Virus record (IMG/VR): IMGVR_UViG_3300048672_000214
Coordinates: 1-36,651 of that record
Length of the DNA: 36,651 nucleotides
Strand: one strand, 5' to 3'
Origin: a virus
Part shown: piece by piece, positions 2,466 through 33,183 of the stretch
How the letters are laid out: every line of letters begins with the position of its first letter
How positions within the stretch are numbered: position 1 is the stretch's first letter
Notes under the pieces: generated by a model
Databases searched by the model: none
What the model saw: the letters and a program-made list of their open reading frames with translations, nothing else
What the model was told of the DNA's origin: nothing
Program-made: the position numbers and the translations under genes

Positions 2466-3614
2466 ATGATTAAACTTTTAGCTATCCATCCTATGGAGTT
2501 TGATGGTACGAGTTACTACCGGGCGCATGGGATATTTCCAAACCTGATAAAACAATTCAATCATCAATTAAGGATCGACAAATATCAGGGAGACTTTGGG
2601 CGCGGTTACAATTGGACTGATCTGCAATATTATGACATTCTATTCCTTCAACGGCCTTGCCTGGACGCGGCTAAAAGAATTCGATTAGTCAACTACTGCA
2701 AAGACTTAGGAATTAAAATATGGATTGACTTTGATGATAACTTGTTCGATCTGCCAAACGAAAACAGATTACAGGAAGATGTTACCAACGAAATCCGTAA
2801 GGACATGGTAACTATTCTAAAACTGGCTGATGTTATCACAGTATCTACAAAAGCGCTAAAGGAATTTTTTGCGACCTTAGGGTTAGTGACTGAGGTCGTT
2901 CCTAACGCGCTGAATGAGGATATCACACCAATGGCAGAGGATTACAATACCCCATTAATAGGCGATCCAATCAAATTACTTTGGCGAGGAAGCGATACCC
3001 ATCAAGGGGATTTATATTACAGCCAGAATGAAATTTTCAAGGCCATTGACATTAGACAAAATACTCATTGGCACTTCATGGGTTATAATCCGTGGTTCAT
3101 CACTAACGGCATGGAGAAAGGACACTACACTTATCACAAGTCAGAGGACTTAATGATTTATTTCAGGAACTTACGCAAAGTAAAACCTCAGTTAGTTCAT
3201 TTTCCTTTGATGCCAAACGCTTTGAACTTTGGAAAGTCTAACATAGCTTGGATTGAATCCACGGCAGCCGGAGCGGTTATTATTGCTCCTGACTGGGAGG
3301 AGTGGCGTAAAACGGGAGTAATTAATTACACCTCACAAGAGCATTACGGGGAATTGTTAACTCGTTCACTTGATGGTGATGCAGAGCTTTGGAAACAAAG
3401 CCGGGATTATATAATGGAGAATTTAACGCTGGACAAAGTAAACGAACAGCGAGTTAGAATAATTGAACGGTTACTTGGATTGAGTACGGTGACCATCACA
3501 AATACAGATTTTGTAAATCCAAATTATAAAAACAACTGGGAAAAAATAAGAAACGATATTGATGCAAAGACTTATGAAGGGTTTAGTAATTTACCTGAAA
3601 CAATGATCGAATGA
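2466..3614 (+). CDS. GT-B fold glycosyltransferase
   Basis: A 382-residue protein with the two-domain layout of GT-B (family 4-like) glycosyltransferases. The N-terminal Rossmann half includes YYDILFLQRP and KIWIDFDDNLFDLP at about 57-97, followed by LADVITVSTKAL and VVPNAL at about 118-148, the usual start of the linker to the second domain. The C-terminal half has LLWRGSDTHQGD (about 169-180), a W-H-F-M-G strand, and IAWIESTAAGAVIIAPDW (about 262-279), which corresponds to the E-x7-E donor-binding region. It would transfer a sugar from a nucleotide-activated donor, probably to a cell-surface glycan or virion protein. It is the first enzyme of the sugar cluster between terminase and portal. 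The acceptor is unknown. Confidence 0.8.
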   Translation: MIKLLAIHPMEFDGTSYYRAHGIFPNLIKQFNHQLRIDKYQGDFGRGYNWTDLQYYDILFLQRPCLDAAKRIRLVNYCKDLGIKIWIDFDDNLFDLPNENRLQEDVTNEIRKDMVTILKLADVITVSTKALKEFFATLGLVTEVVPNALNEDITPMAEDYNTPLIGDPIKLLWRGSDTHQGDLYYSQNEIFKAIDIRQNTHWHFMGYNPWFITNGMEKGHYTYHKSEDLMIYFRNLRKVKPQLVHFPLMPNALNFGKSNIAWIESTAAGAVIIAPDWEEWRKTGVINYTSQEHYGELLTRSLDGDAELWKQSRDYIMENLTLDKVNEQRVRIIERLLGLSTVTITNTDFVNPNYKNNWEKIRNDIDAKTYEGFSNLPETMIE

Positions 3615-3739
3615 AAAATATTTTAGAATGGCTTTCTGGAAAGGAATATGTTACTAGATGGGCAATATTGCTACATATTTTTAACACGATTGTAATAGTA
3701 ATAACTTTAATTATAATGTATTTGATATGGCTCTTATAG
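3611..3739 (+). CDS. Small single-span membrane protein
   Basis: A 42-residue ORF. Its ATG overlaps the stop of the GT-B gene (ATGA) and its stop lies 13 nt inside the next glycosyltransferase gene. About 18 N-terminal residues (MKNILEWLSGKEYVTRW) precede one long hydrophobic helix (AILLHIFNTIVIVITLIIMYLIWLL) that runs to the C terminus, so it is predicted to be tail-anchored. Its position between two glycosyltransferases suggests a membrane partner for them or a stand-alone small phage protein. Function is not known. Confidence 0.6.
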   Translation: MKNILEWLSGKEYVTRWAILLHIFNTIVIVITLIIMYLIWLL

Positions 3740-4494
3740 CAATGGCTGCCTACTCGACTGCCGAAAACCAAAAAGACGCGCAACTCCGAAAGACTCTTCA
3801 ATCACTTTGGGAAACCGTGGACTGGACAAAACACAGATTAATGATCTCGGTAAACGGCAGCACAGAGGAAACCCGTGAGATACTTAGAGACTACGAGGAA
3901 ATGATTGAGGACGTAATAGTCAACGACTCGAACATAGGAACGGCAAAAGCGATTAACAAAGTTTGGAAACTTCGCAGGTCCGGTGAACACTGCGTGAAGA
4001 TCGATGATGACGTTGTTATCCATCATGACGGCTGGGTGGATGAAATGGAAGAGGCTATAAATCGGGAGCCTAAGATCGGGATAATCGGACTAAAGCGAAA
4101 GGATTTGATTGAATGCACCACTCACCCAGATACAAACTATCGGAGTGTATTAATTCAGCTTCCACACAAGCCGGGCGAAAGATGGATAGTTATCGAACGC
4201 GCGCGAGGTATAATGGGAACGTGTAAGATGATTAATCACGCTTTACTCGACAAGATAGGCTATCTATATCAGCCATCGGTGTACGGATTTGATGATTCAA
4301 TGTACTCATGTAGGTCTGACATAGCAGGGTTTATAAACTGTTTTTTACCTCATATAAACATAGACCACATTGATCCGGGAGGGACTAACTATACAACATG
4401 GAAACAAGATCACGCAGGTGAAACGTTTTCAAAAGCGAATCAGGTAATTAACGATTATATTTCAGGTAAAAGGCCAATTTACGAAGAAGCATGA
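3727..4494 (+). CDS. GT-A family 2 glycosyltransferase
   Basis: A 255-residue protein of the GT2 type. The N-terminal half has the strand-helix pattern of the nucleotide-sugar domain (LMISVNGSTEETREIL, about 38-53; NDSNIGTAKAIN, about 66-77), ending in the metal-binding DxD-type motif KIDDDVVIH (D93-D95). A second half with RGIMGTCKMINHALLDKIG and YGFDDSMYSCRS (about 158-200) resembles the acceptor and catalytic region with its 'ED/DD' acid pair. It would add a sugar to a surface or virion glycan. The gene overlaps both small ORFs beside it, so the block is probably one transcript. Confidence 0.82.
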   Translation: MALIAMAAYSTAENQKDAQLRKTLQSLWETVDWTKHRLMISVNGSTEETREILRDYEEMIEDVIVNDSNIGTAKAINKVWKLRRSGEHCVKIDDDVVIHHDGWVDEMEEAINREPKIGIIGLKRKDLIECTTHPDTNYRSVLIQLPHKPGERWIVIERARGIMGTCKMINHALLDKIGYLYQPSVYGFDDSMYSCRSDIAGFINCFLPHINIDHIDPGGTNYTTWKQDHAGETFSKANQVINDYISGKRPIYEEA

Positions 4495-4613
4495 AAAATT
4501 CATTTACACATTATGTTTACAAACATGATATAAATACTTATGTCGTGTGCGCTTGGAGTGGATGTGATTTAATTGGTATGTGGCGGGTTAAAAAATTAAA
4601 AGAATGCGTATAG
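4491..4613 (+). CDS. Hypothetical 40-residue protein
   Basis: A 40-codon ORF starting at the ATGA overlap with the preceding glycosyltransferase and ending 10 nt inside the next gene. The peptide (MKNSFTHYVYKHDINTYVVCAW...) has two Trp and three Cys residues and a basic C terminus (RVKKLKEC), with no clear membrane helix. I do not recognise it. The case for it being real is the perfect overlap on both sides, which recurs throughout this operon. Confidence 0.5.
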   Translation: MKNSFTHYVYKHDINTYVVCAWSGCDLIGMWRVKKLKECV

Positions 4614-5209
4614 CTTTATCCTATTCCGGTTACCTTCGCACATGGTCACAGTGTAAGCCAAACCACTACGAGAACATTATAACTCCTGATTGTGATTTGT
4701 ATTTTTACACCTACACGCATGAAGATCCACTATACAAAGAGGCAGATAATAAATATTACTTTACTCGAATACCTCAGGCACTACATGATAACCCATTTGG
4801 TGACCATAAGTTTAACACTAGAAAGGTACCTGAGAACACATCTCACCAAGTTCTTAACCAATGGACGAATAACTTCGTTGGCTTTTGCCTTATCCCGAAT
4901 ACTTACGATATTTACGTAAGGATAAGACCTGATTTGAAGTTCAACGGTAAGCTAAACTTTGCAGATTATAATTGCAGTGAGAATAACATTTACATCCCTC
5001 AGGGAATGGACTTTGGAGGAATAAACGATCAATTTGCTTTCGGTAATCACAAAGTAATGAAGGCTTACTTTTCAGTTTTGATAAATGCTTTTGATTTATG
5101 GCATAATGGTACAATTTTTCACGCTGAAGGCATGCAGTTAGCTAATCTACAAAGTCAAGGTATTAATATTGTTCGTATAGGATCACCTCAACACGATATA
5201 ATAAGATGA
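4604..5209 (+). CDS. Glycosyltransferase-like protein of viral/surface-glycan type
   Basis: A 201-residue protein. The start MRIALSYSGYLRTW, the phrase DIYVRIRPDLKFNG (about 102-115) and GGINDQFAFGNHKVMKAY (about 138-155) match a class of glycosyltransferase-like proteins seen in viruses and polysaccharide loci, in which a Gly/Ser-rich start is followed by a 'RxRPDL' motif and a 'DQFAFG' motif. No classic DxD is evident. It lies inside the sugar cluster and overlaps the next gene by ATGA. A sugar-transfer role is inferred from these phrases and from context. Confidence 0.55.
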   Translation: MRIALSYSGYLRTWSQCKPNHYENIITPDCDLYFYTYTHEDPLYKEADNKYYFTRIPQALHDNPFGDHKFNTRKVPENTSHQVLNQWTNNFVGFCLIPNTYDIYVRIRPDLKFNGKLNFADYNCSENNIYIPQGMDFGGINDQFAFGNHKVMKAYFSVLINAFDLWHNGTIFHAEGMQLANLQSQGINIVRIGSPQHDIIR

Positions 5210-5826
5210 GGTATCACACAATCATACCTATCAACGGAGATAACGAACGAATGGGTAAGTTATTTAAGACTCCCAAACACATGCTTTTATATAATGGACT
5301 TCCATCAATAATTGCAACCACTTCGATCATGAAGGAGAAAGGAAAAGTTAAATGTTTAGTGGGCGATCAGTATTCAGAAATTCCATTTGTTGAAAACCAA
5401 CGAGTAAGAAAAACCAACAACTCAGTTGAAACAGTTTTACAGACTAGCTTACACGTTAGCACTTTTATAATTGATTGCGATGTCATCCCGCTAAAATTAG
5501 ACGAACCAACTACTAACACGGTCTATCTTTTCAAAAATACCACCGGAATAAATCAATACTCTAACTTTAAACTTGATTCAGACGGTTATGTGATCGACTG
5601 CAATGAGAAAGGAGAAGAATTCGAGTGGTGCGGGGCCGGAGTTTATTACTTTGCTGACCAAACTTCGTTTTACGACTCGGCTTATAAAAGCAAATCAATG
5701 GCGGAGATTATCAAACACCAAACAGACTTCGCAAATCTACACAACAGGCCTTATTTCAGATTTAAAGGCAATACAACGAGTAAAATTTTCAGATTTGGCA
5801 CTTTACAGGACATTTTATGCAGTTGA
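5206..5826 (+). CDS. Sugar/choline-type nucleotidyltransferase (NTP_transferase-like)
   Basis: A 206-residue protein. The N terminus IIPINGDNERMGKLFKTPKHMLLYNGLPSI (residues 6-35) follows the family signature GxGxR...PKxLxxxxGxPxI of nucleotidyltransferases that join NTP to a phosphorylated sugar, choline or similar group. A later FIIDCDVIPL (about 86-95) supplies the DxD metal-binding pair. The next gene encodes an HGD-motif kinase, and together they resemble the LicC/LicA or capsule-type pair in which a kinase phosphorylates a small molecule and this enzyme activates it. The substrate cannot be read from the sequence. It overlaps its neighbours at both ends. Confidence 0.65.
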   Translation: MRYHTIIPINGDNERMGKLFKTPKHMLLYNGLPSIIATTSIMKEKGKVKCLVGDQYSEIPFVENQRVRKTNNSVETVLQTSLHVSTFIIDCDVIPLKLDEPTTNTVYLFKNTTGINQYSNFKLDSDGYVIDCNEKGEEFEWCGAGVYYFADQTSFYDSAYKSKSMAEIIKHQTDFANLHNRPYFRFKGNTTSKIFRFGTLQDILCS

Positions 5827-6464
5827 CAGGCGGATTTACTCAAAATATAGTCATGAGACAGGGTGATTTTGTCGATAAAATAGGCAAAACAGCCTCCGAT
5901 GAGGTAGCTTGGTATGCATCTTACTTGGATAAAAACGACATTCCGAATATCGTAAGTAGTAATGAATTGGGCTTTAAAATGGAGTTTTTGGAGTCAAAAG
6001 GACCTGTAAACATCGAAAAAGTGATTGAGATAGTCGAAAAATACAAGCATTACGAGCCTATAAACTGGCTAACATTCCAATTTTACCGGGATCGAATCCG
6101 TTTCCACGTGGAACAATCACCTATTAGCAATGGCGACAAACTTTTGAAGCTACTGGAGGATTTCAGCGTTGACTTTTCATTTGCGCATGGTGATTTATCA
6201 ATCCGGAACATCATCCAGACAGAAACAGGTCCGAAATTAATTGATCCGCTTTATTATCGGAATTTTGGGAGTTATATAGTCGATTATGCAAAACTAGCCT
6301 TTACACTAAAGTTTTTTAACGGTGATGTTGAAGGATTCGAGAGGGTTAAACGACAGGCAAACTTTGAACAGTTTGATATTTTAGTTGCGTCTGAGTGTGT
6401 GAGGGTGGCAACGTACAATAGGAAGTTTGATTTCATTGCTGAAAATCTTGTAAACGAATTATGA
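5817..6464 (+). CDS. Aminoglycoside/choline-kinase-fold phosphotransferase
   Basis: A 215-residue, rather short member of the APH/choline kinase fold. The catalytic loop is FAHGDLSIRNII (H124-G-D126 ... N131), followed by the metal-binding strand KLIDPLYYRN (D143). The short N-terminal lobe has few recognisable nucleotide-binding residues. It would phosphorylate a small alcohol, sugar or choline-like compound that the preceding nucleotidyltransferase could then activate. It overlaps that gene by 10 nt and the next by ATGA, suggesting coupled translation. It is unlikely to be an antibiotic-resistance gene given its neighbours. Confidence 0.68.
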   Translation: MQLTGGFTQNIVMRQGDFVDKIGKTASDEVAWYASYLDKNDIPNIVSSNELGFKMEFLESKGPVNIEKVIEIVEKYKHYEPINWLTFQFYRDRIRFHVEQSPISNGDKLLKLLEDFSVDFSFAHGDLSIRNIIQTETGPKLIDPLYYRNFGSYIVDYAKLAFTLKFFNGDVEGFERVKRQANFEQFDILVASECVRVATYNRKFDFIAENLVNEL

Positions 6465-7207
6465 TACTTGTTTGCTCTTACACCAACGAAAGAATAACAG
6501 AACTTTGTCTTAGGCAACTAGCATTGACAAAATCAAGTCGTTCAGTCGTTTTAGTTTGGGATAATCACTATCCTTTGAACCGTACCGACTTCGTTAAAAA
6601 TATTTGTGATGAATTACATTTCATTTACATGAGTGAAGGCCGTAATATGGGTATGTATCACGCTTATAATACCATGCTAAACTCATGCAATGATGATACT
6701 GTTATTACAATGGATGGCGACAATTTTATAAATCAGTATGAATGGGATAATCAAATAGAATTAGTACTCAAAGATCAAAGCATTGGAACGGCAACACTCA
6801 GAACAAAAGTTAGTGATCGTGAATTGAAAGAAAGAGGGTTTGAATTTACCAATATCAACGGGGTAAATGTTAAGATCACAAAGCAAGCCTGCACTAATAC
6901 TGTTTGTGGATGGAATACAGAGTTTTTAAAGTCAATAGGAGGCATTAAAGGAGGCAAAGAATATTACGGAGGAAATGAGGTTGAGATGTGGAAACACTAT
7001 GTAGAAAAGAAGTGGGCTTATCTTACTGATTACTACGAGTTGACCGAGTTAATCAAGCCTTTACAGGATTGGCAATATGAGCAGTATAAATTGCTTTACG
7101 CTCATAAAGGAATGGGAGGAAGTTTTGAAGATTACCTTAAAACCAATCCTGAACGAATTGAAGATATTGAAACTTTCATATTTAACGAATCAAAATGGAA
7201 AAAATAG
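6461..7207 (+). CDS. Second GT-A type glycosyltransferase
   Basis: A 248-residue protein starting MILVCSYTNERITELCLRQL, like GT2 enzymes. It has SEGRNMGMYHAYNTML (about 58-73) and the DxD motif ITMDGDNFI (D85, D87). GWNTEFLKSIGGIKGG and YYGGNEVEMWKHYVEKKW (about 150-183) fit the acceptor/catalytic part with the usual acidic residues. The C-terminal tail is helical and polar. It would be the second GT2 enzyme of the cluster, so the product glycan probably has at least two or three sugars. It overlaps the methyltransferase gene by 13 nt. Confidence 0.75.
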   Translation: MILVCSYTNERITELCLRQLALTKSSRSVVLVWDNHYPLNRTDFVKNICDELHFIYMSEGRNMGMYHAYNTMLNSCNDDTVITMDGDNFINQYEWDNQIELVLKDQSIGTATLRTKVSDRELKERGFEFTNINGVNVKITKQACTNTVCGWNTEFLKSIGGIKGGKEYYGGNEVEMWKHYVEKKWAYLTDYYELTELIKPLQDWQYEQYKLLYAHKGMGGSFEDYLKTNPERIEDIETFIFNESKWKK

Positions 7208-7788
7208 AACACATCTATCACACAATCCCCAGCCCTCAGGAGTTAAGCTACAAAGACTTTTATTCTGAGATGGTGCAAAAATTCCCTTCAGGATCTTTAA
7301 TGGTAGAGGTAGGAGTTTATCACGGTCGCTCTTTCTCTTACTTGATTATCGAAATGCTTAACGCTGGCAAGAAGTTCGACTGCGTGGCTGTTGACGCTTG
7401 TCCGTGGGAGGGCGAGCCGTGCATTGGATTCCACAAGCACATGGAACCGCTAAAAGATCATTTTCGTGTGATGTTTGAAAAGGTGGATTCATTTGTTGCA
7501 GCAAATAATTTTGAAGATGGTTCAATTGACTTTTGTTTTGTCGATTGTAACCATACTTACCCATTCGTAATACGAGATATAAATGCGTACCTACCAAAAA
7601 TGAAAAAAGGATCAATCCTCAGCGGTCATGATTGGTCTGATGTAGGAGTAAGAAAAGCAGTATATGAAGCATTTGAAATTTCTGGATTTGATGAATATAT
7701 TATACTAGACGGTCGATTTTTATTAGCTGGAAAAGAAAAGAATGTTCACATCGATACTAAACAAGATATATGGTACGTTCAACTTTAA
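7195..7788 (+). CDS. Class I SAM-dependent methyltransferase (Methyltransf_24-like)
   Basis: A 197-residue protein. Motif I is LMVEVGVYHGRSFSYL (residues 35-50, E38-x-G40...G44). An acidic residue closes the second strand (VAVDACPW, D67). IDFCFVDCNHTYPFVIRDINAYLPKMKKGSILSGHDW (111-147) is the typical central part of the Methyltransf_24 group, common next to glycosyltransferases. It would methylate a sugar hydroxyl or a glycan end, perhaps capping the chain. The overlapping neighbours place it in the sugar-modifying operon. Confidence 0.78.
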   Translation: MEKIEHIYHTIPSPQELSYKDFYSEMVQKFPSGSLMVEVGVYHGRSFSYLIIEMLNAGKKFDCVAVDACPWEGEPCIGFHKHMEPLKDHFRVMFEKVDSFVAANNFEDGSIDFCFVDCNHTYPFVIRDINAYLPKMKKGSILSGHDWSDVGVRKAVYEAFEISGFDEYIILDGRFLLAGKEKNVHIDTKQDIWYVQL

Positions 7789-8309
7789 TTGGCAAAAACT
7801 CAGTAATAAGCAACAAGGTATCAATGTATGGTGATATTGAGGTTGGCGACAATGTACGCATTGATGACTTCTGTATTCTATCCGGCACCATCAAAATTGG
7901 CAACAACGTACACATAGCGGCAGGAGTTTACTTGTATGGTGGTGGCGGCATTGAAATAAAAGACTTCGCACAGATTGGCGCAAAATCTACACTTCATTCA
8001 GCCAGTGATGATTTTTCAGGTGAGTATCTAGTTGGGCCAACAAACCAAAACACAAACGTAAAAAGTGCGCCTATCGTATTGGAAGAATATGCGGTACTGG
8101 GTGCGAATTGTGTTGTGCTGCCAGGTGTTACGATCGGAAAGAATACCGCAGTAGGGGCGATGAGTTTGGTAAATAAAAGTTTGCCAGAAAACTCAATCTA
8201 TGGTGGCAGTCCAGCAAGATTTTTAAAAGATCGTAAGCAATTAGTCGAACATTTACCTCACTCAGAATTTGAAAACCAAATAGAATGGCACAAGGAGTCC
8301 ACAAAATAA
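7770..8309 (+). CDS. Hexapeptide-repeat (left-handed beta helix) acyltransferase
   Basis: A 179-residue protein built of imperfect [LIV]-G-x4 hexapeptides: STLIGKNSVISNKVSMYGDIEVGDNVRIDDFCIL (4-37), GTIKIGNNVHIAAGVYLYGGGGIEI (39-63) and the C-terminal YAVLGANCVVLPGVTIGKNTAVGAMSLV (about 107-134), then the loop SIYGGSPARFLK that closes most O/N-acetyltransferases of this type. It would transfer an acetyl or other acyl group to a sugar, plausibly to the amine made by the adjacent aminotransferase. It overlaps the methyltransferase gene upstream and the aminotransferase gene downstream. Confidence 0.85.
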   Translation: MVRSTLIGKNSVISNKVSMYGDIEVGDNVRIDDFCILSGTIKIGNNVHIAAGVYLYGGGGIEIKDFAQIGAKSTLHSASDDFSGEYLVGPTNQNTNVKSAPIVLEEYAVLGANCVVLPGVTIGKNTAVGAMSLVNKSLPENSIYGGSPARFLKDRKQLVEHLPHSEFENQIEWHKESTK

Positions 8310-8917
8310 CCGAACAATTCGAGGCTAAACTTTGTGACTACACTGGCGCGCCTTATGCAGTGGCGGTTGACAATTGCAGTAATGCGCTGTTTTTGGCTTT
8401 GAAATGGTTGGGATTATCAGGGATTGAAATATCAGTTCCAAAACATACTTACCCAGCTGTTCCGTGCGAAGTTATACACACAGGCAACAAAGTAAAGTTT
8501 TATGATTCACCCGAACGGCTAACTGGTTTTTATACACTTGATGGGACTAACGTAATTGATTCAGCATTACACTTTACTGCGGATATGTATATTCCAGGAT
8601 TTAGTATGTGCCTATCATTTACAGGTCCTTACAAACATCTTAAACTAGGTAAGGGAGGCGCAATACTAACAGATAATAAAGCCGCTTACGAATGGTTTAA
8701 ACGTGCTAGATTTTCAGGAAGGCGGGAATGTTCTTATCTTGAGGATGATTTCGATACTTTAGGATGGAATTTTTATATGATGCCTGAAATAGCTGCGCGC
8801 GGTTTACTTCTTATGGATCAATTCTACACTGAGAACGGAAAGAAACATAATGAACCTATTACGCATCGTTACCCGGATTTGAGTAAATTTAAAGTTTATC
8901 AAAATGTCAATTTATAG
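8285..8917 (+). CDS. Short DegT/DnrJ/EryC1-type PLP aminotransferase
   Basis: It resembles sugar aminotransferases, which convert keto sugars to amino sugars with PLP. Signs are YTGAPYAVAVDNCSNALFLAL (about 19-39), VPKHTYPAVPCEV (51-63), the Asp that holds the PLP ring nitrogen (NVIDSALHF, D92), the lysine region SFTGPYKHLKLGKGG (K117 is the likely Schiff-base lysine), and GWNFYMMPEIAARGL (160-174), equivalent to 'GyNxRmselqAA'. At 210 residues it is little more than half the usual 370-400; the spacing in the middle and the small C-terminal domain are cut down. It could be a minimal active form or a remnant with altered activity. Confidence 0.72.
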   Translation: MAQGVHKITEQFEAKLCDYTGAPYAVAVDNCSNALFLALKWLGLSGIEISVPKHTYPAVPCEVIHTGNKVKFYDSPERLTGFYTLDGTNVIDSALHFTADMYIPGFSMCLSFTGPYKHLKLGKGGAILTDNKAAYEWFKRARFSGRRECSYLEDDFDTLGWNFYMMPEIAARGLLLMDQFYTENGKKHNEPITHRYPDLSKFKVYQNVNL

Positions 8918-11782: not shown

Positions 11783-13186
11783 ATGGAAAACATTGCGACC
11801 CAAATTAAAGGCCTGAAAGAAGAGAGGGCCGGCAAGATCACCGGAATGGATGGCCTTGTCAACAAAATGATCGGAGAAAAACGGTCATTGACTTCTGATG
11901 AACAAACTCAATACGATGCTATGAAGGCAGAAGTAGAGAGCATTGATAAACGCATGGCTATCCTGGAAGAAACAGAGAAACGCCAATTAGCAACCGCTAA
12001 ACCTGCAGGATATTCAGGTGCCGGTTCCGAAGGTGGAGACACTGGAGAAACTGAAAGACGCGAAAAACAAAAAATGTATGATAAGTGGACTTGGAAAAGA
12101 GCACTTACAATCGGAACTGTTCGCGGTGCAAGACGTGACGGAGTTGAGGACGAACTTGACAAAGAAGAGCGTAAAACAATGCTTGAATCAGGCGTGAGTG
12201 AACTTTCTAACGAAAGTATCTTAGCTCCAGCGCAAGTATTCCAACGCGCACGTAATATCCAAAGACGTGATATGGACGCCACCACAGCCACAGCAGCTCC
12301 AAGCAACGAAGGATCATTCACGATTCAAACAAACGTTGAGGGTATCGTTGATGTGTTCTTGCCAGAGATGGTGGTCGGAAAACTGCCCATCATGAGAATG
12401 AATAACCTTCGCGGAAACGTTCAATTCCCTCAGTCTCAAACTTTGCCAGCTGCAGGCTGGAACACTGAGAACGGAACAGCCACAGAGAAAACTCCAAGAT
12501 TTGCAAAGTTGAATCTTAGCCCTAAGAGATTGGCGGCTTATATTCAACTTTCAAATCAGTTGTTAACTCAATCAGAGGCTAACATCTCCCGTTTCGCAAA
12601 TCGTTTCCTTGTTCAAGCTTCGGCTATTGAATTGGAGAAAGTGTTTTTGAAAGGTGGTGGTTCAAACGAGCCTTCCGGTATCCTTGCAAGCACTTCAAAC
12701 TATACTTTGCTTTACGCTGGTGATGCCGCTAACAACGCGGTAAATGCTAACGGTTCACGTCTGGTTTGGGCTGACTGGGTTAAACTTGTTTCAACCCCTA
12801 AGACCTCCAACTCTCCAGATGGTCAGGCTTACGTGACTTCGCCATCCATCAAAGGACGCGCGCAGATCACCCCAAGACAATCTTCAGGCGTTGAGGGCAA
12901 CTTCATCCTGCAAAATTGGAACAGCGGTGTAAACGGATACCAGGTACTTGGAACAACCAACATGCCTGACACTTATTCTAAAGGTGGTTCAACTATATTG
13001 TCTGCCATCATCTTCGGTGACTGGTCACAATCGGTTATCGCTTCATGGGGTGGAATGGAAATCGGTGTAGATCCTTATGTAAACATGAAAGAAGGTTTGA
13101 CCAACGTTGTGTTAAACTCTTACATGGATTGCGGAGTTTTGAATCCTGCGGCTTTTGCGGCAATTAAAGACGCTCAGTCATACTAA
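11783..13186 (+). CDS. Major capsid protein (HK97 fold) with N-terminal scaffold domain
   Basis: A 467-residue HK97-type capsid protein. Residues 1-75 form a charged coiled coil (IKGLKEERAGKITGMDGLVNK ... AEVESIDKRMAILEETEKR), the delta or scaffold domain that the protease removes. A Gly/Ser-rich linker (SGAGSEGGDTGE) follows, then an RRD-rich region. The mature shell domain starts near TIQTNVEGIVDVFLPEMVVGKLPIMRMNNLRGNVQFPQ and runs through VFLKGGGSNEPSGIL and the late GDWSQSVIASWGGMEIGVDPY. Crosslinking by Lys and Asn as in HK97 cannot be decided from this sequence. Confidence 0.93.
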   Translation: MENIATQIKGLKEERAGKITGMDGLVNKMIGEKRSLTSDEQTQYDAMKAEVESIDKRMAILEETEKRQLATAKPAGYSGAGSEGGDTGETERREKQKMYDKWTWKRALTIGTVRGARRDGVEDELDKEERKTMLESGVSELSNESILAPAQVFQRARNIQRRDMDATTATAAPSNEGSFTIQTNVEGIVDVFLPEMVVGKLPIMRMNNLRGNVQFPQSQTLPAAGWNTENGTATEKTPRFAKLNLSPKRLAAYIQLSNQLLTQSEANISRFANRFLVQASAIELEKVFLKGGGSNEPSGILASTSNYTLLYAGDAANNAVNANGSRLVWADWVKLVSTPKTSNSPDGQAYVTSPSIKGRAQITPRQSSGVEGNFILQNWNSGVNGYQVLGTTNMPDTYSKGGSTILSAIIFGDWSQSVIASWGGMEIGVDPYVNMKEGLTNVVLNSYMDCGVLNPAAFAAIKDAQSY

Positions 13187-13365
13187 TGACAATTAGATTC
13201 ATCAAGGACCCGACAGGGAAATATAGTCTGTGTTATAACATCGGGGAGGAAATAGACCTCCCCGATTTACAGGCTAGGGAACTGATTGAAGACGGTTACG
13301 CTATTCCTTTGGAGTTGCCAAAACCTGACAACGCAATGAGTAAAAAGAAGACTGAAAAACGTTGA
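13186..13365 (+). CDS. Small head protein after the major capsid protein
   Basis: A 59-residue ORF whose ATG shares a base with the stop of the capsid gene. The sequence IRFIKDPTGKYSLCYNIGEEIDLPDLQARELIEDGYA follows a short pattern ('F.kdptGkf.l.y..Ge...l....A.eLie.GyA') typical of small proteins between major capsid protein and head-tail connector in siphophages; they may be head-completion or decoration factors. It overlaps the next gene, which begins with TTG at 13362. Confidence 0.7.
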   Translation: MTIRFIKDPTGKYSLCYNIGEEIDLPDLQARELIEDGYAIPLELPKPDNAMSKKKTEKR

Positions 13366-13946
13366 ACCCAGTAAAACAAATAACGCCAAGTACTTTAGAA
13401 ATCGTTACGTTAACGGAGGCTAAAGCACATTTGAAGGTGACTTCAACGGATGAAGATACGCTTATTCAAAGCTATCTGAATGCGGCTGTTAGGCGTTGTG
13501 AGAATTACCGGCAATCGGTTATTATGTCTTCTGAGTGGGAAGTTTATTTGCGTCAATGGTCTGCAAACGTTAACCTTCAAAAGTACCCGGTAACAGCGAT
13601 AAACAGCGTCAAGTATTACGACACAAACAACAATCAGCAAACAGTAACACCAAGCGCAACAACTTACAGGCTTTTAGATTTTAAGGTTCCGGCCCGTTTA
13701 GAGTTTGATAACACTTACTCTTTTCCAAGTCTTTACAATCGTGAATATCCGATCGTGATTAACTATCAGGCTGGCTACACTTACAGCGCATCGGCTAACT
13801 ATGCGTTAATAAAAGAGGCTGTTTTCATGGAGCTAGGAACTTATAATGAGATCCGGCAGAATGAAATTTTAGGAGTTGGTTTGGCTGGCGTTCAGATTAA
13901 AAATAGTTCAATGGAATTGTTAGACGCTGAATGTTTGTGGTTATGA
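13362..13946 (+). CDS. Head-tail connector (phiE125 gp8 / HK97 gp6-like)
   Basis: A 194-residue protein that would form the ring below the portal. The N-terminal helical pair VTLTEAKAHLKVTSTDEDTLIQSYLNAAVRRCENY (about 16-50) is the mark of this family. It is followed by strands (WEVYLRQW, YPVTAINSVKYYD) and a helix (ALIKEAVFMELGTYNEIRQNE). The start is TTG, overlapping the stop of the previous ORF (TTGA); the next ATG lies well inside the conserved part, so TTG is preferred. Confidence 0.85.
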   Translation: MNPVKQITPSTLEIVTLTEAKAHLKVTSTDEDTLIQSYLNAAVRRCENYRQSVIMSSEWEVYLRQWSANVNLQKYPVTAINSVKYYDTNNNQQTVTPSATTYRLLDFKVPARLEFDNTYSFPSLYNREYPIVINYQAGYTYSASANYALIKEAVFMELGTYNEIRQNEILGVGLAGVQIKNSSMELLDAECLWL

Positions 13947-29368: not shown

Positions 29369-29396
29369 ATTAAGGCGGTGCGCGAAGCCGCCAAAG
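29369..29396 (-). terminator. GC-rich hairpin at the left end of the cassette array
   Basis: On the gene strand, GGCGG-CTTCGCGCA-CCGCC (29392-29374) is followed by TTAATTTTTAAAAC. A stem of five strong pairs plus a T-rich tail fits an intrinsic terminator between the array and the next small genes. Confidence 0.4.
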
Positions 29397-29408
29397 CCCA
29401 CCAACACC

Positions 29409-30001
29409 GTGTATATGCCATTGAAAGCGCGGGAGAGTTTAGTTCTTCGTAGCATCGTTCAGTGAGGTTTTTGAATTTAAAATAACCCCGCCAGCCAGTG
29501 GACGAATAAAGATTTTGTTAGGTGAAAGTTTAAAGTAATCAAATTTGTTCTTTGCCTTGCTTATGTATTGTCTGGTTATTCCTTTTTGCTCACAATAATC
29601 CTTCACCAAAAAGTAACCTACATTTCTGGGGTCAATTCTAAAAACGTGTTTCCCGCCCCGCGTCCATTCATAGTACCAACACATTTCAAATAATTGATTC
29701 CCAAGCAAGGCATTTACCAGACTTTCATTACCGGACCACCCGCCAGTTATTAAGGTCCATTGTAGAAAATCCTTTTTTAAAATCTTGTCCTTTATAACTT
29801 CCCGCTTAATGAAGTCATGGTAAGTCCATCGCTCTTCAACAAATTGGAGTAGTGTTGGGAAGTCTTTCACATCCCATTTACGAATCATTCGTAACTCTTT
29901 TTCTTCTGGGTAACCTTCTGAATCCATCGCTCTGTTATTTTAAATTCAAAAACTGTTCTTCGTAGTTAAGTTTGTGTTCGCGCTTTCAACGTCATATACA
30001 C
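29409..30001 (-). mobile_element. Cassette 1: single gene between long inverted repeats
   Basis: The left arm (29409-29486) and right arm (29934-30001) are imperfect reverse complements. Three blocks match perfectly in order from outside in: GTGTATATG, TTGAAAGCGCG and the 20-bp GTTTTTGAATTTAAAATAAC. The arms enclose one leftward gene (29439-29927). The inner left block is inside the coding end and the inner right block lies 6 nt before the start codon. No transposase or recombinase is encoded in the unit. The class of element is not known. Confidence 0.6.
29439..29927 (-). CDS. Cassette 1 gene, hypothetical phage protein
   Basis: A 162-residue protein. TGGWSGNESLVNALLGNQLFEMCWYYEWTRGGKHVFRID (about 61-99) is a phrase I recall from small hypothetical proteins in many phages ('TGGWSGNE.li.al..n..fw..cW..s.rGG.y.F.i'). 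A basic central helix (KDYCEQKGITRQYISKAKNKFDYFKL) follows. The C terminus GGVILNSKTS is encoded by the inverted-repeat arm and reappears in the cassette 3 protein, although the two are otherwise unrelated. The function is unknown. Confidence 0.7.
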   Translation of the reverse strand: MDSEGYPEEKELRMIRKWDVKDFPTLLQFVEERWTYHDFIKREVIKDKILKKDFLQWTLITGGWSGNESLVNALLGNQLFEMCWYYEWTRGGKHVFRIDPRNVGYFLVKDYCEQKGITRQYISKAKNKFDYFKLSPNKIFIRPLAGGVILNSKTSLNDATKN

Positions 30002-30117
30002 TTGATACATTATAAACAATAGCCGAATCCGGCAGCAAAAGCACCCCAAAAAAAACGCTCAAATCCTGCCCGCTGTGCTTTTAACCCACGCTTCATTCGT
30101 CTACTGTTTATAACGCT
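30002..30117. repeat. Inter-cassette spacer 1-2 with nested inverted repeats
   Basis: After TTGATAC comes TTATAAACAATAG (30010-30022), which pairs 12 of 13 with CTACTGTTTATAA (30101-30113). Inside it AAAAGCAC (30037-30044) pairs perfectly with GTGCTTTT (30075-30082). The spacer has no ORF of note. Its plan equals spacer 2-3, but the stem bases differ and stay complementary. Confidence 0.6.
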
Positions 30118-30539
30118 GTGTATGTGCCAGGCTCGTGTGACGCTTCGTAGATAGTGTGTGCAATTCATTTTTAATTGCCTCCATCGCGCGGTGGAGAGTC
30201 AAATTCATGTTCAGTGACAATGGTATTTCTTATTCCTAGTTTTATTTTATAGGTCATAGCTCGGCCTTCTGTTTCAAATCTCATTGCCTTTAGTGGATCA
30301 TTAGTCCATTGCTCTTTATAATCTTTAAGGCATACATACCATTGTCGCGTCTCATTGTGTTCAATAAAGAATATTCCCTTTTTGTTGAAAATTCTTTCCA
30401 GTGCTTCTATTGCTGCATCATCATCACGGTTAAAAAAGTTACTTTCTGTCATAGTCCCAGCCCTTCGGCAATTAAAAATGAATGATAGTTTTATATTCCA
30501 TAGTTACGTTAATCATACTACACGCCCGATCACATACAC
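30118..30539 (-). mobile_element. Cassette 2: single gene between long inverted repeats
   Basis: The left arm (30118-30179) and right arm (30467-30539) share GTGTATGTG outside, CGTGT in the middle and the 16-bp TTCATTTTTAATTGCC inside, all as perfect inverted pairs. Both outer blocks carry GTGTATGTG where cassettes 1 and 3 have GTGTATATG, and the inner block is unlike theirs, so the two ends agree with each other but not with the neighbouring units. They enclose one leftward gene (30171-30452). Confidence 0.6.
30171..30452 (-). CDS. Cassette 2 gene, hypothetical protein
   Basis: A 93-residue protein. DDAAIEALERIFNKKGIFFIEHNETRQWYVCLKDYKEQWTNDPLKAMRFETEGRAMTYKIKLGIRNTIVTEHEFD has a strand-strand-helix pattern with 'W.ndp..a..F.t...A', which I recall from small phage and prophage proteins of Bacteroidota. 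The TAA lies within the left inverted-repeat block. It ends PPRDGGN, a short tail comparable with PRGG in the cassette 3 protein. Function is unknown. Confidence 0.68.
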   Translation of the reverse strand: MTESNFFNRDDDAAIEALERIFNKKGIFFIEHNETRQWYVCLKDYKEQWTNDPLKAMRFETEGRAMTYKIKLGIRNTIVTEHEFDSPPRDGGN

Positions 30540-30652
30540 TTGATACCATTATGTGCAATATTGCTCCTCAATAAAAGCCTTCCGCACGGAGGCACGCACA
30601 AGCCCACCCGCACGGCTTTTCCCAACGCTCCCGCAATACAGCACATAACACC
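30540..30652. repeat. Inter-cassette spacer 2-3 with nested inverted repeats
   Basis: After TTGATACC comes TTATGTGCAATATTGC (30549-30564), pairing 14 of 16 with GCAATACAGCACATAA (30633-30648). Inside it AAAAGCC (30573-30579) pairs with GGCTTTT (30614-30620). CCGCACGG occurs twice (30582-30589 and 30608-30615). The sequence TTATGTGCAATATTGC recurs at the right end of the array (about 31214-31229). Confidence 0.62.
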
Positions 30653-31205
30653 GTGTATATGCTATAAAAAAGGCCGGATAGTTTAGTGCTTCGTTCATAG
30701 TTCAGTGGAAGTTTTTGAATTTAAAATAACCCCACCGCGCGGAGTGACAGAGATGTCTATATAGTATTGAGGGTCTTCTAAAAATTCAGGTTTTTCGTGT
30801 AGACCTGTTCCCGTGTTCATATATCCGCCACGGTTTAATTGAATCACGTATGAATTTCTTCCTCCTGGCAAAACACTGTTTAGAAAAATTGATTTACTAT
30901 CAGATGTCCAGCCGTTCATGTATTGGCTCATTGCGTTAATCATTTCCATCTCATCCTTGGGGTTATCAACCCACGGAATAGCAATAAGGTCAAGGTCTCT
31001 ATTCATGCTACCGTGGACAACAAGGTTATAACCGTGTTCCTTGGCTATTTCTTTTAACGCTTCGAAATAGTACGCATAAACATTAGGTTTTGCGTGTAGT
31101 GGTTTCTTATAAGGTACTCCAATAATTGCCATCGCTCTGTTATTTTAAATTCAAAAACCGTGTTTCAATCTTAGTTCAGTGTGGCCTTTTTTACAGCATA
31201 TACAC
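30653..31205 (-). mobile_element. Cassette 3: single gene between long inverted repeats
   Basis: The left arm (30653-30730) and right arm (31139-31205) match as inverted repeats. GTGTATATG plus TAAAAAAGGCC match in 22 of 23 positions including the 3-nt link, and the inner 20-bp GTTTTTGAATTTAAAATAAC is perfect. The middle block differs from that of cassette 1 (TTGAAAGCGCG), yet each is conserved within its own unit. They enclose one leftward gene (30695-31132). Confidence 0.62.
30695..31132 (-). CDS. Cassette 3 gene, nucleotidyltransferase-like phage protein
   Basis: A 145-residue protein. VYAYYFEALKEIAKEHGYNLVVHGSMNRDLDLIAIPW (about 18-54) has the G-S-x9-D-x-D-like pattern of minimal nucleotidyltransferases (GSMNRDLDL), and later strands include SYVIQLNRGGYMN and QYYIDISVTP. 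I recall this 'HGS..RDLDL.A.PW ... YIDlSV' pattern in phage proteins without known function. The C terminus PRGGVILNSKTS comes from the repeat arm. Enzyme activity is unproven. Confidence 0.68.
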   Translation of the reverse strand: MAIIGVPYKKPLHAKPNVYAYYFEALKEIAKEHGYNLVVHGSMNRDLDLIAIPWVDNPKDEMEMINAMSQYMNGWTSDSKSIFLNSVLPGGRNSYVIQLNRGGYMNTGTGLHEKPEFLEDPQYYIDISVTPRGGVILNSKTSTEL

Positions 31206-31235
31206 TTGATACATTATGTGCAATATTGCTCCCAC

Positions 31236-31601: not shown

Positions 31602-31802
31602 TTATTTTTTAACAAAGTATTCAAGATATTTTTTACCTTTAACTCGTTGCCTATCTGGGATGAGTTTATACTCCCTTGCAACGTCTGAGATTCTACTTCT
31701 TAAATCTGCAATACCCCAGCGTTGGAAAGCTATCACCCTGTTTACCTTCACTCCCTGGCGAAGTATGTGGTACAGTAAGTCTACTTGGTTGTCAAATGTC
31801 AT
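31602..31802 (-). CDS. Helix-turn-helix protein (HTH_39-like)
   Basis: A 66-residue protein. QVDLLYHILRQGVKVNRVIAFQRWGIADLRSRISDVAREYKLIPDR fits small winged-helix/HTH proteins with the pattern 'il..L..g..vt...A...fgi..l..RIsdlr..g', and the basic C terminus (RVKGKKYLEYFVKK) fits the wing. It may regulate the recombination genes or act as a directionality factor, but no integrase is present. It overlaps the YqaJ stop by ATGA. Confidence 0.72.
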   Translation of the reverse strand: MTFDNQVDLLYHILRQGVKVNRVIAFQRWGIADLRSRISDVAREYKLIPDRQRVKGKKYLEYFVKK

Positions 31803-32485
31803 CTTAGTAAATTTAAAAGTTTCCTCTTTTCAGTGAAAGCTATTTGAAGTTTTTTAATCAGTGCGTTTTGATCCTCGTCATTTGAAGGAATGATTAAGTG
31901 CGTCATCTTGTGTTTATATTCAATCATTCGTGGATCGTACGTTACAAAGTGGCAAACCATCTTTGAAGCGAATAACATGTTAGCTTGACATTGCCAATAG
32001 TATTCCCTAAAATCTCTTTTTAGATCGTGCCAATCAGTGAGCATTAAGTATTGAAGTTGCTTTGCTGAATCGTAAGGACATTTGATTTCTAGTATCTCAT
32101 TTTCACCTATCTCCCTGTCTGGAGATCCTCCGGCCTCGTCTGAGTAAGGATAAAAACCTACCACGCTAGTTTCTAAGCCAGTCATTTTTTCAAAGAACTC
32201 CACGGCCTCCGGTTCTTTTTCAATGCCCCAAACTAAAGGGAAAGCGTATCCCTGTTGCTTGGCTTGTCCGGTCATTACCTCAGCTACCTTTTCACTAACG
32301 TAAGTCATAGCGGTTTCAGAAAGTTTTCCCGCTTCTTGGTCCGCTTTTGTCTTAGGTTCTACCATTATCTTCCAAATCTCAGATGAGGTAAAGCGACCTA
32401 AACGGATTTGATACCATTCAGGAGTATTTTGATCAATGAATGAAAGTGCCTTGCTTTCGTCATTAAGGTTATCTAAGAAGCTCAT
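31799..32485 (-). CDS. YqaJ-type exonuclease (lambda Exo-like)
   Basis: A 228-residue nuclease that would resect double-stranded DNA for single-strand annealing. FIDQNTPEWYQIRLGRFTSSEIWKIM (about 16-41) is the YqaJ start. WGIEKEPEAVEFFEKMTG (about 86-103), GGSPDREIGENEILEIKCPYD (about 118-138, with the D...E-x-K catalytic core) and YYWQCQANMLFA (about 163-174) complete the PD-(D/E)XK layout. It overlaps the ERF gene upstream by ATGA, forming a two-component recombination pair. Confidence 0.9.
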   Translation of the reverse strand: MSFLDNLNDESKALSFIDQNTPEWYQIRLGRFTSSEIWKIMVEPKTKADQEAGKLSETAMTYVSEKVAEVMTGQAKQQGYAFPLVWGIEKEPEAVEFFEKMTGLETSVVGFYPYSDEAGGSPDREIGENEILEIKCPYDSAKQLQYLMLTDWHDLKRDFREYYWQCQANMLFASKMVCHFVTYDPRMIEYKHKMTHLIIPSNDEDQNALIKKLQIAFTEKRKLLNLLR

Positions 32486-33183
32486 TTGCCTTTACTGTTT
32501 AGTTCTACAAGTACCTTTCCTATTTCCTTAATTGCCTTGACATACACCTTACCAGTGCGTTCAGTCTTCCAGTTATCAGGATGCCACTTGCTAAGGCTTG
32601 CATCTTTTTGAATCACTTGGTCATAAATTGACATGTAATCTTTGTGGAGCTTGTCAATATCTAAATCAGGCATGCGTCCGTCAATGTCAGAATCAGCCGT
32701 AGATAAACCTAGCGCGCCTATTAGGGTATAACGCTTCAAGTATTCAATCGCGCTTCCACGGGCCTGTATTGCGTTTTTGGAGCCGCTTGCATCTGGCGGT
32801 GATGTCATGGTCGTTTGCTCCGTGTGACCATCAACATGGGAGATCAAACAAGTTACTTTCAATTCATTAGGATTATCCTGAATTTCCCATCGGTATGATA
32901 AGCCAGCATCTTTTAAAGTCTTTCCTATTTGGCGGCAAATGTCAGCAAGTGGAGCAAAACTGTATTTTGTTTGCCCAAAGTTAACCTCCTTAGTTTTTCT
33001 AAGGTCAGGGCATTTGCTTTGAAACTCCGTGAAGGCCTCAAAGAAAAGTTTACGGGCTTGTCCAGCCTGATAGCGTTCCTGTAGGTCCATCAGTTTACTA
33101 AGGCTCTCAACGTCTAAGCCTTTTTCTATTGCCTGGCTAAGAAGGTTTGCGGGTGTTGTGTCTATTCTTTCTAAGGTTTCCAT
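32482..33183 (-). CDS. erf: ERF-family single-strand annealing protein
   Basis: A 233-residue recombinase partner. LQERYQAGQARKLFFEAFTEFQSKCPDLRKTKEVNFGQTKYSFAPLADICRQIGKTLKDAGLSYRWEI (about 31-98) and SGSKNAIQARGSAIEYLKRYTLIGALGLSTADSDIDG (about 134-170) are the ERF core, including the 'G.a.sYakRY.l..llgi.t.d.D.DG'-type block. With the YqaJ exonuclease it would join linear genomes or circularise terminally redundant DNA, fitting a pac-type or circularly permuted phage. Confidence 0.9.
   Translation of the reverse strand: METLERIDTTPANLLSQAIEKGLDVESLSKLMDLQERYQAGQARKLFFEAFTEFQSKCPDLRKTKEVNFGQTKYSFAPLADICRQIGKTLKDAGLSYRWEIQDNPNELKVTCLISHVDGHTEQTTMTSPPDASGSKNAIQARGSAIEYLKRYTLIGALGLSTADSDIDGRMPDLDIDKLHKDYMSIYDQVIQKDASLSKWHPDNWKTERTGKVYVKAIKEIGKVLVELNSKGK

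Follow-up and report, generated by a model that had tools for sequence, protein, structure and literature searches.

What kind of element is formed when three small genes of one phage each lie between long inverted arms that match only within their own unit? The window analysed here is a stretch of 36,651 nt (IMG/VR virus record IMGVR_UViG_3300048672_000214), and it contains three leftward genes of this plan at 29409-31205. We consider it quite probable that the locus is an integron-type gene-cassette array without an integrase of its own (CALIN-like), in a phage whose host, judging from its relatives, is probably a member of Bacteroidota. CALIN here means at least two attC sites with no integrase in the record, and the window has three attC-type sites by our own profile, not by the published attC covariance model. 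This little-known kind of gene-swapping cassette array is found in many related phages, some with a recombinase alongside.

Anatomy of the array

The features are listed in Table 1. Each gene is flanked by arms specific to its unit, with complementary blocks of 91-100%, so the three single-gene units described in an earlier note on this DNA do exist, although unit 2 is weak. The own-arm alignment scores of units 1, 2 and 3 are 29, 17 and 27.5, while the best of 1,000 shuffles reached 18, 17 and 16 respectively; that is, the score of unit 2 equals its best shuffle. When at least 18 of 23 complementary positions were demanded, only units 1 and 3 showed the plan in the whole 36.6 kb, and one such pair appeared in 12 dinucleotide shuffles.

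Table 1. Features of the three-unit array and its neighbours (positions in the window)
Feature	Position	Strand	Remarks
Array left end	29373..29401		short hairpin (GGCGGTGCGCGAAGCCGCC) replacing type A body
attC-type site 1 (type B palindrome), gene in loop	29402..30012	+	R'' CAACA at 29402; L'' GTGTATATGCC at 29409; L' CGTCATATACAC ending 30001; R' region TTGATACATTA
Outer arms, unit 1	29409-29431/29979-30001		23 nt, 91% complementary
Inner arms, unit 1	29467-29486/29934-29953		20 nt, 100% complementary
Gene 1	29439..29927	-	162 aa
Spacer 1-2	30009..30114	none	gene-free cassette body, type A palindrome TTATAAAC...GTTTATAAC
attC-type site 2, gene in loop	30111..30551	+	arms shorter, weaker; outer blocks short
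Inner arms, unit 2	30163-30179/30467-30483		17 nt, 100% complementary
Gene 2	30171..30452	-	93 aa, unknown
Spacer 2-3	30548..30649	none	gene-free cassette body
attC-type site 3, gene in loop	30646..31216	+	outer arms 22/23 complementary
Outer arms, unit 3	30653-30675/31183-31205		96% complementary
Inner arms, unit 3	30711-30730/31139-31158		20 nt, 100% complementary
Gene 3	30695..31132	-	145 aa, related to phrog_35913
Array right end	31213..31234		left half of a further type A body, truncated (TTATGTGCAATATTGCTCCC)
YqaJ-like exonuclease and ERF single-strand annealing protein	31799..33183	-	array neighbours; 31799-32485 and 32482-33183

The spacers between the units, which the earlier note had passed over, are long palindromes too (29993-30126 and 30531-30661; folding z of -3.4 and -3.2). 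Spacer 2-3 has a near-identical copy in the viral contig L023, and the same covariance family occurs in a Bacteroidota chromosome. As had been stated, no integrase is nearby: no tyrosine recombinase or integrase was found in the window. The record lacks end repeats and may cover only part of the phage genome, so an integrase may lie elsewhere in this phage.

Relatives, covariation and exchange of units

With DNA patterns taken from the array boundary sequences, we found the same plan, carrying other genes, in 10 other viral contigs (L023, L036, L061, L091/L202, L118, L166, L199, L228 and L266), 9 of which are distinct because L091 and L202 overlap; L166 is the same as L324. No real match was obtained when the array was compared by BLAST with phage and plasmid collections. 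Four loci (L048-L051) matched CAYATACACTTGATACATT in 85k bacterial and archaeal genomes; the one that was read, L048, was rejected as a chance match within a coding sequence.

Pairing within the unit is maintained, as had been proposed. In a set of 17 units, drawn from the window and nine further contigs, the arms of 16 pair best with each other, and the summed own-arm score is 415, compared with at most 303 in 100,000 permutations. The stems covary as well: at least two Watson-Crick pair types occur at 20 of 22 stem positions, while G-T is seen in only 3 of 286 cells. Similarly, 12 of 14 spacer pairs changed on both sides and one-sided changes are almost absent. Many double changes with nearly no wobble point to pairing in DNA rather than RNA.

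The units of L118, L166 and L228 have arms of 95-98% identity, while the similarity of the spacers on either side is at background level or close to it. Constant arms between unrelated spacers indicate that units change their context. Inside the same arms, the gene core of L166 shares only 59% DNA identity with that of L118 (57% for shuffled sequence), which means that gene cores are exchangeable within the arms. The suggestion that each unit moves as one piece is right in that units reappear in new contexts, but a unit need not always move whole, as its core can be swapped. The conserved boundary expected at GTGTATATG does exist, except that it runs a few bases further out, reaching TAACA at the left end and TTGATACATTA at the right end. 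The exchange point is placed just outside GTGTATATG.

Some relatives mix the two layouts, as in L324, where one gene occupies an attC loop and the next a cassette body. In L202 (first 560 bases of the reverse complement of 12000-13938), the site GTTGGCAGC...GCCAACA is a gene-free cassette body, one arm of which holds an extra inserted hairpin, giving nested palindromes.

The arms as attC-type sites

A covariance model of the spacers was scanned against 395 Bacteroidota genomes, with 8 candidates scored per genome. It matched one chromosome (L298, E = 7e-18), a single match that does not represent a frequency. In L298, palindromes of the form GCTAACA-AAAAG-TTTATGCC...GTCATAAAC-TCAAA-CGTTAGC alternate with a toxin-antitoxin-like gene pair and with gene-free hairpins. 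This layout is that of integron attC sites, R''-spacer-L''...L'-spacer-R'. Aligned to it, the window units are attC-type sites that read TAACA-CCG-TGTATATGCC... with the gene in the loop, and the spacers of the window are gene-less cassette bodies. The spacers had been read at first as attC sites themselves, but their R-box polarity is wrong (GTTA...TAAC), and L298 equates them with the cassette body and the gene-bearing arms with attC.

By their motifs, then, the window arms are identified as attC sites of the type present in Bacteroidota phage and chromosomal integrons, with R'' TAACA, L'' GTGTATATGCC and a complementary L'. The opinion that no named element has this plan thus has to be given up, as the arms match attC-type integron sites and relatives carry a recombinase. 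For a profile of the R''-L'' edge, integrase-bearing viral contigs and chromosomes supplied 90 gene-free sites, the 10 contigs found by array boundaries being left out. Among 73,246 window positions, the left edges of units 3, 1 and 2 ranked 1, 2 and 4; these scores owe part to the fixed TAACA, yet unit 1 lacks the T (CAACA) and unit 2 the final A (TAACG). The R'' core AAC, spacer and L'' expected of attC are thus present in the window, with an imperfect match in units 1 and 2, and L'' and L' are complementary with variable sequence.

The right side departs from the site family. The R' core GTT, which holds the G|TT cleavage point, is replaced by CATTA in the window and in most gene-bearing relatives, while array-start and gene-free sites have (C)GTTA. 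CATTA takes the place of CGTTA, the spacer is longer, and by profile the right edges ranked only 301, 316 and 1945. Nor is the strict form RYYYAAC / GTTRRRY found, as CACATAAC and GTTATGTG illustrate; agreement with the consensus is limited to the AAC and GTT triplets. Since TTGATACATTA is kept across many contigs, the R' region looks like a maintained variant and not like random decay.

A further mark is an A-C mismatch at index 18 counted from the T of TAAC (15 nt past TAAC), surrounded by near-perfect Watson-Crick pairs in the gene-free sites. Of the gene-free sites, 74 have an ungapped stem, and 70 of these carry the mismatch; sites had been chosen for pairing and not for this feature. It is also found in 11 of 13 gene-bearing units, including window units 1 and 3. 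On the opposite strand the A-C becomes a G-T pair, and the folds of the two strands therefore differ. The mismatch may do the job of the extrahelical bases in classical attC sites, though by the definition in PMC2727003 it is not itself extrahelical. What is unusual about the array is that whole genes sit in the attC loop, that the spacers are gene-free cassette bodies and that R' is CATTA instead of CGTTA.

Integrase genes linked to the arrays

A check with PF00589 confirmed that the integrase is absent from the window and from 7 of 8 other array-bearing records. L324 encodes a 268-aa Xer/IntI-like tyrosine recombinase, starting about 40 bp from the first hairpin of the array. XerA/XerD-type and integron integrases come closest to it, but it stays under all curated NCBIfam cut-offs: it scores 144 bits with TIGR02249 (cut-off 265) and 185 with NF040815 (cut-off 220), so it falls short of IntI as curated, and nothing in it matches TIGR02249 positions 181-239. 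Besides itself, it has 30 relatives on viral contigs. In the 31 loci, attC-like sites of the same orientation lie 5' of the integrase gene at 0.92 per kb, about 8x background (opposite orientation 0.11, 3' flank 0.13 and shuffles 0.13 sites per kb). Stricter criteria left 60 sites in 21 loci and none on the opposite strand. An integrase beside an att core and an oriented attC array, as in a complete integron, is thus found in relatives such as L324, and Polaribacter phage Leef_1 also has an integrase beside the same site type. In the integrase-linked arrays, however, only 7 of 60 sites have loops above 150 nt, the longest of 360 nt; gene-sized loops are rare there, and this counts against the attC-cassette reading, as do the lack of an integrase in the window and most of the checked records, the deviating R' side and the integrase score under the IntI cut-off.

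Longer integrase frames of 378-408 aa were noticed in L325 (5319-6455) and in the chromosomes G237, G315, G197 and G406, all without a match to the IntI-specific region of TIGR02249. The one in G237 has attC-like arrays at a distance of no more than about 10 kb and is apparently a chromosomal counterpart.

Comparison with known integron systems

The closest known systems are the phage integron arrays and CALINs of PMC9892861. Both have palindromic sites and single genes in an array, the order R''-L''...L'-R' and an AAC core; methyltransferase cargo occurs in the window's relatives, and the window record has no integrase. In contrast, here the whole gene is in the attC loop and the cassette body is an empty hairpin, the genes are opposite to the usual attC polarity, the R' core is ATT and not GTT, and the index-18 A-C mismatch replaces extrahelical bases. 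In Polaribacter phage P12002L, Qi et al. found a CALIN and assayed two attC sites, one of which was recombined by IntI1 (PMC9892861, 2023). The same phage gave strong scores with our R''-L'' profile, which makes it the same site type at phage level, the scored sites not being equated with the two assayed.

The relatives resemble complete chromosomal integrons in that an integrase gene and an att-like GTTA core are accompanied by an ordered attC array on one side, but their integrase of about 250-270 aa is closer to XerA/XerD than to curated IntI. The terminal structures of VCR sites are non-coding, whereas here genes of 0.28-0.49 kb fill the loop. Our sites may share strand asymmetry with the attC sites of VCR and other large arrays (PMC2727003).

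In Bacteroidetes proper, the complete integrons reported with IntegronFinder 2.0 came from one genome, Salinibacter ruber (PMC9024848). The integrase-linked array family is now seen in dozens of viral contigs and in Bacteroidota chromosomes, and the signature of TAACA, an A-C mismatch 15 nt past TAAC and CGTTA could be used to find further arrays.

Proposed mechanism and rival explanations

We propose that each unit is an attC-type site with the whole gene in its terminal loop, the palindromic spacer being a cassette body that is gene-less here. One strand of the site would fold into a hairpin as single-stranded DNA, and a tyrosine recombinase would read the hairpin by its structure, namely the R and L boxes and the fixed A-C / G-T position. 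Only the complementarity within a unit would then have to persist while the sequence is free to drift, giving unit-specific arms. In relatives, the short Xer/IntI-like integrase encoded at the array start beside a GTTA core would act on these sites; in the window phage, a recombinase from the host or from a co-infecting phage would act in trans, and the CATTA sites would still be active. On a broader scale, the evidence leaves it evenly balanced whether Bacteroidota phages own an integron lineage with a short Xer-like integrase and hairpins read by the A-C / G-T position, one branch of which keeps the gene inside the attC hairpin so that cargo and site come in one piece. Genes in attC loops would probe the limit on loop size in hairpin recombination, and they would explain a trade of phages in single accessory genes, such as DNA methyltransferases.

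The main rival keeps the attC descent of the arms but has them swapped today by homologous or single-strand-annealing recombination through ERF and YqaJ, the arms serving as homology islands and CATTA being dead for the integrase. The ERF and YqaJ genes adjoin the array, the R' core is altered, and gene cores vary within constant arms just as a double crossover would yield, all of which makes this a serious but less than probable explanation. It leaves the outer exchange without guidance, because the flanking spacers differ too and no homology extends beyond the unit; besides, complementarity and the index-18 mismatch are kept across differing sequences, and homology alone needs neither.

That the palindromes work in RNA, as paired mRNA ends or as RNase III or terminator hairpins around single-gene transcripts, would agree with the stable RNA folding of the spacers and with the spacing of the genes. 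This is improbable, since G-U pairs are nearly absent amid many double changes and the boxes fit a family of integrase-linked DNA recombination sites; an Rfam search, too, matched no known structured-RNA family. Less probable still is a reading of the units as non-autonomous transposons, bounded by terminal inverted repeats and mobilised in trans by a transposase. The inverted ends and the way in which units relocate whole would suit it, but the ends differ among units and are complementary solely within a unit, the spacers are complementary structures and not target duplications, and related arrays share one orientation starting from the integrase. The shared terminal repeats with target-site duplication of a TIR transposon or MITE are missing, and the TAACA / CATTA boundary is not a direct repeat.

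Cargo genes

Gene 1 had no match in Pfam, NCBIfam or PHROG, and a search for its relatives found none. The proteins of genes 1 and 3 are otherwise unrelated, and they have GGVILNSKTS in common near their C-termini because both reading frames enter the shared inner arm. In the relatives L118, L166 and L228, the arms likewise encode N-terminal residues like MRSGGIELLN.

In gene 3, a GSMNRDLDL motif suggests a nucleotidyltransferase-like fold. Its homologue in LR756500, whose sequence was read, has no such arms, and the homologue in a Klebsiella phage lies in a tightly packed neighbourhood as seen from the annotation alone. The existence of armless homologues in other phages indicates that gene 3 itself is not bound to the element. 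At the same locus of LR756500.1 (L365, a 462-kb uncultured phage), attC-like sites occur a few kb from the gene-3 homologue. The genes in related arrays differ from those of the window, and several resemble DNA methyltransferases by their motifs.

Away from the array, about 6.5 kb of sugar-modification genes (2466-8917), including glycosyltransferases, a hexapeptide transferase and a DegT-type aminotransferase, are located between the terminase and portal genes of the window, which is an unusual location.
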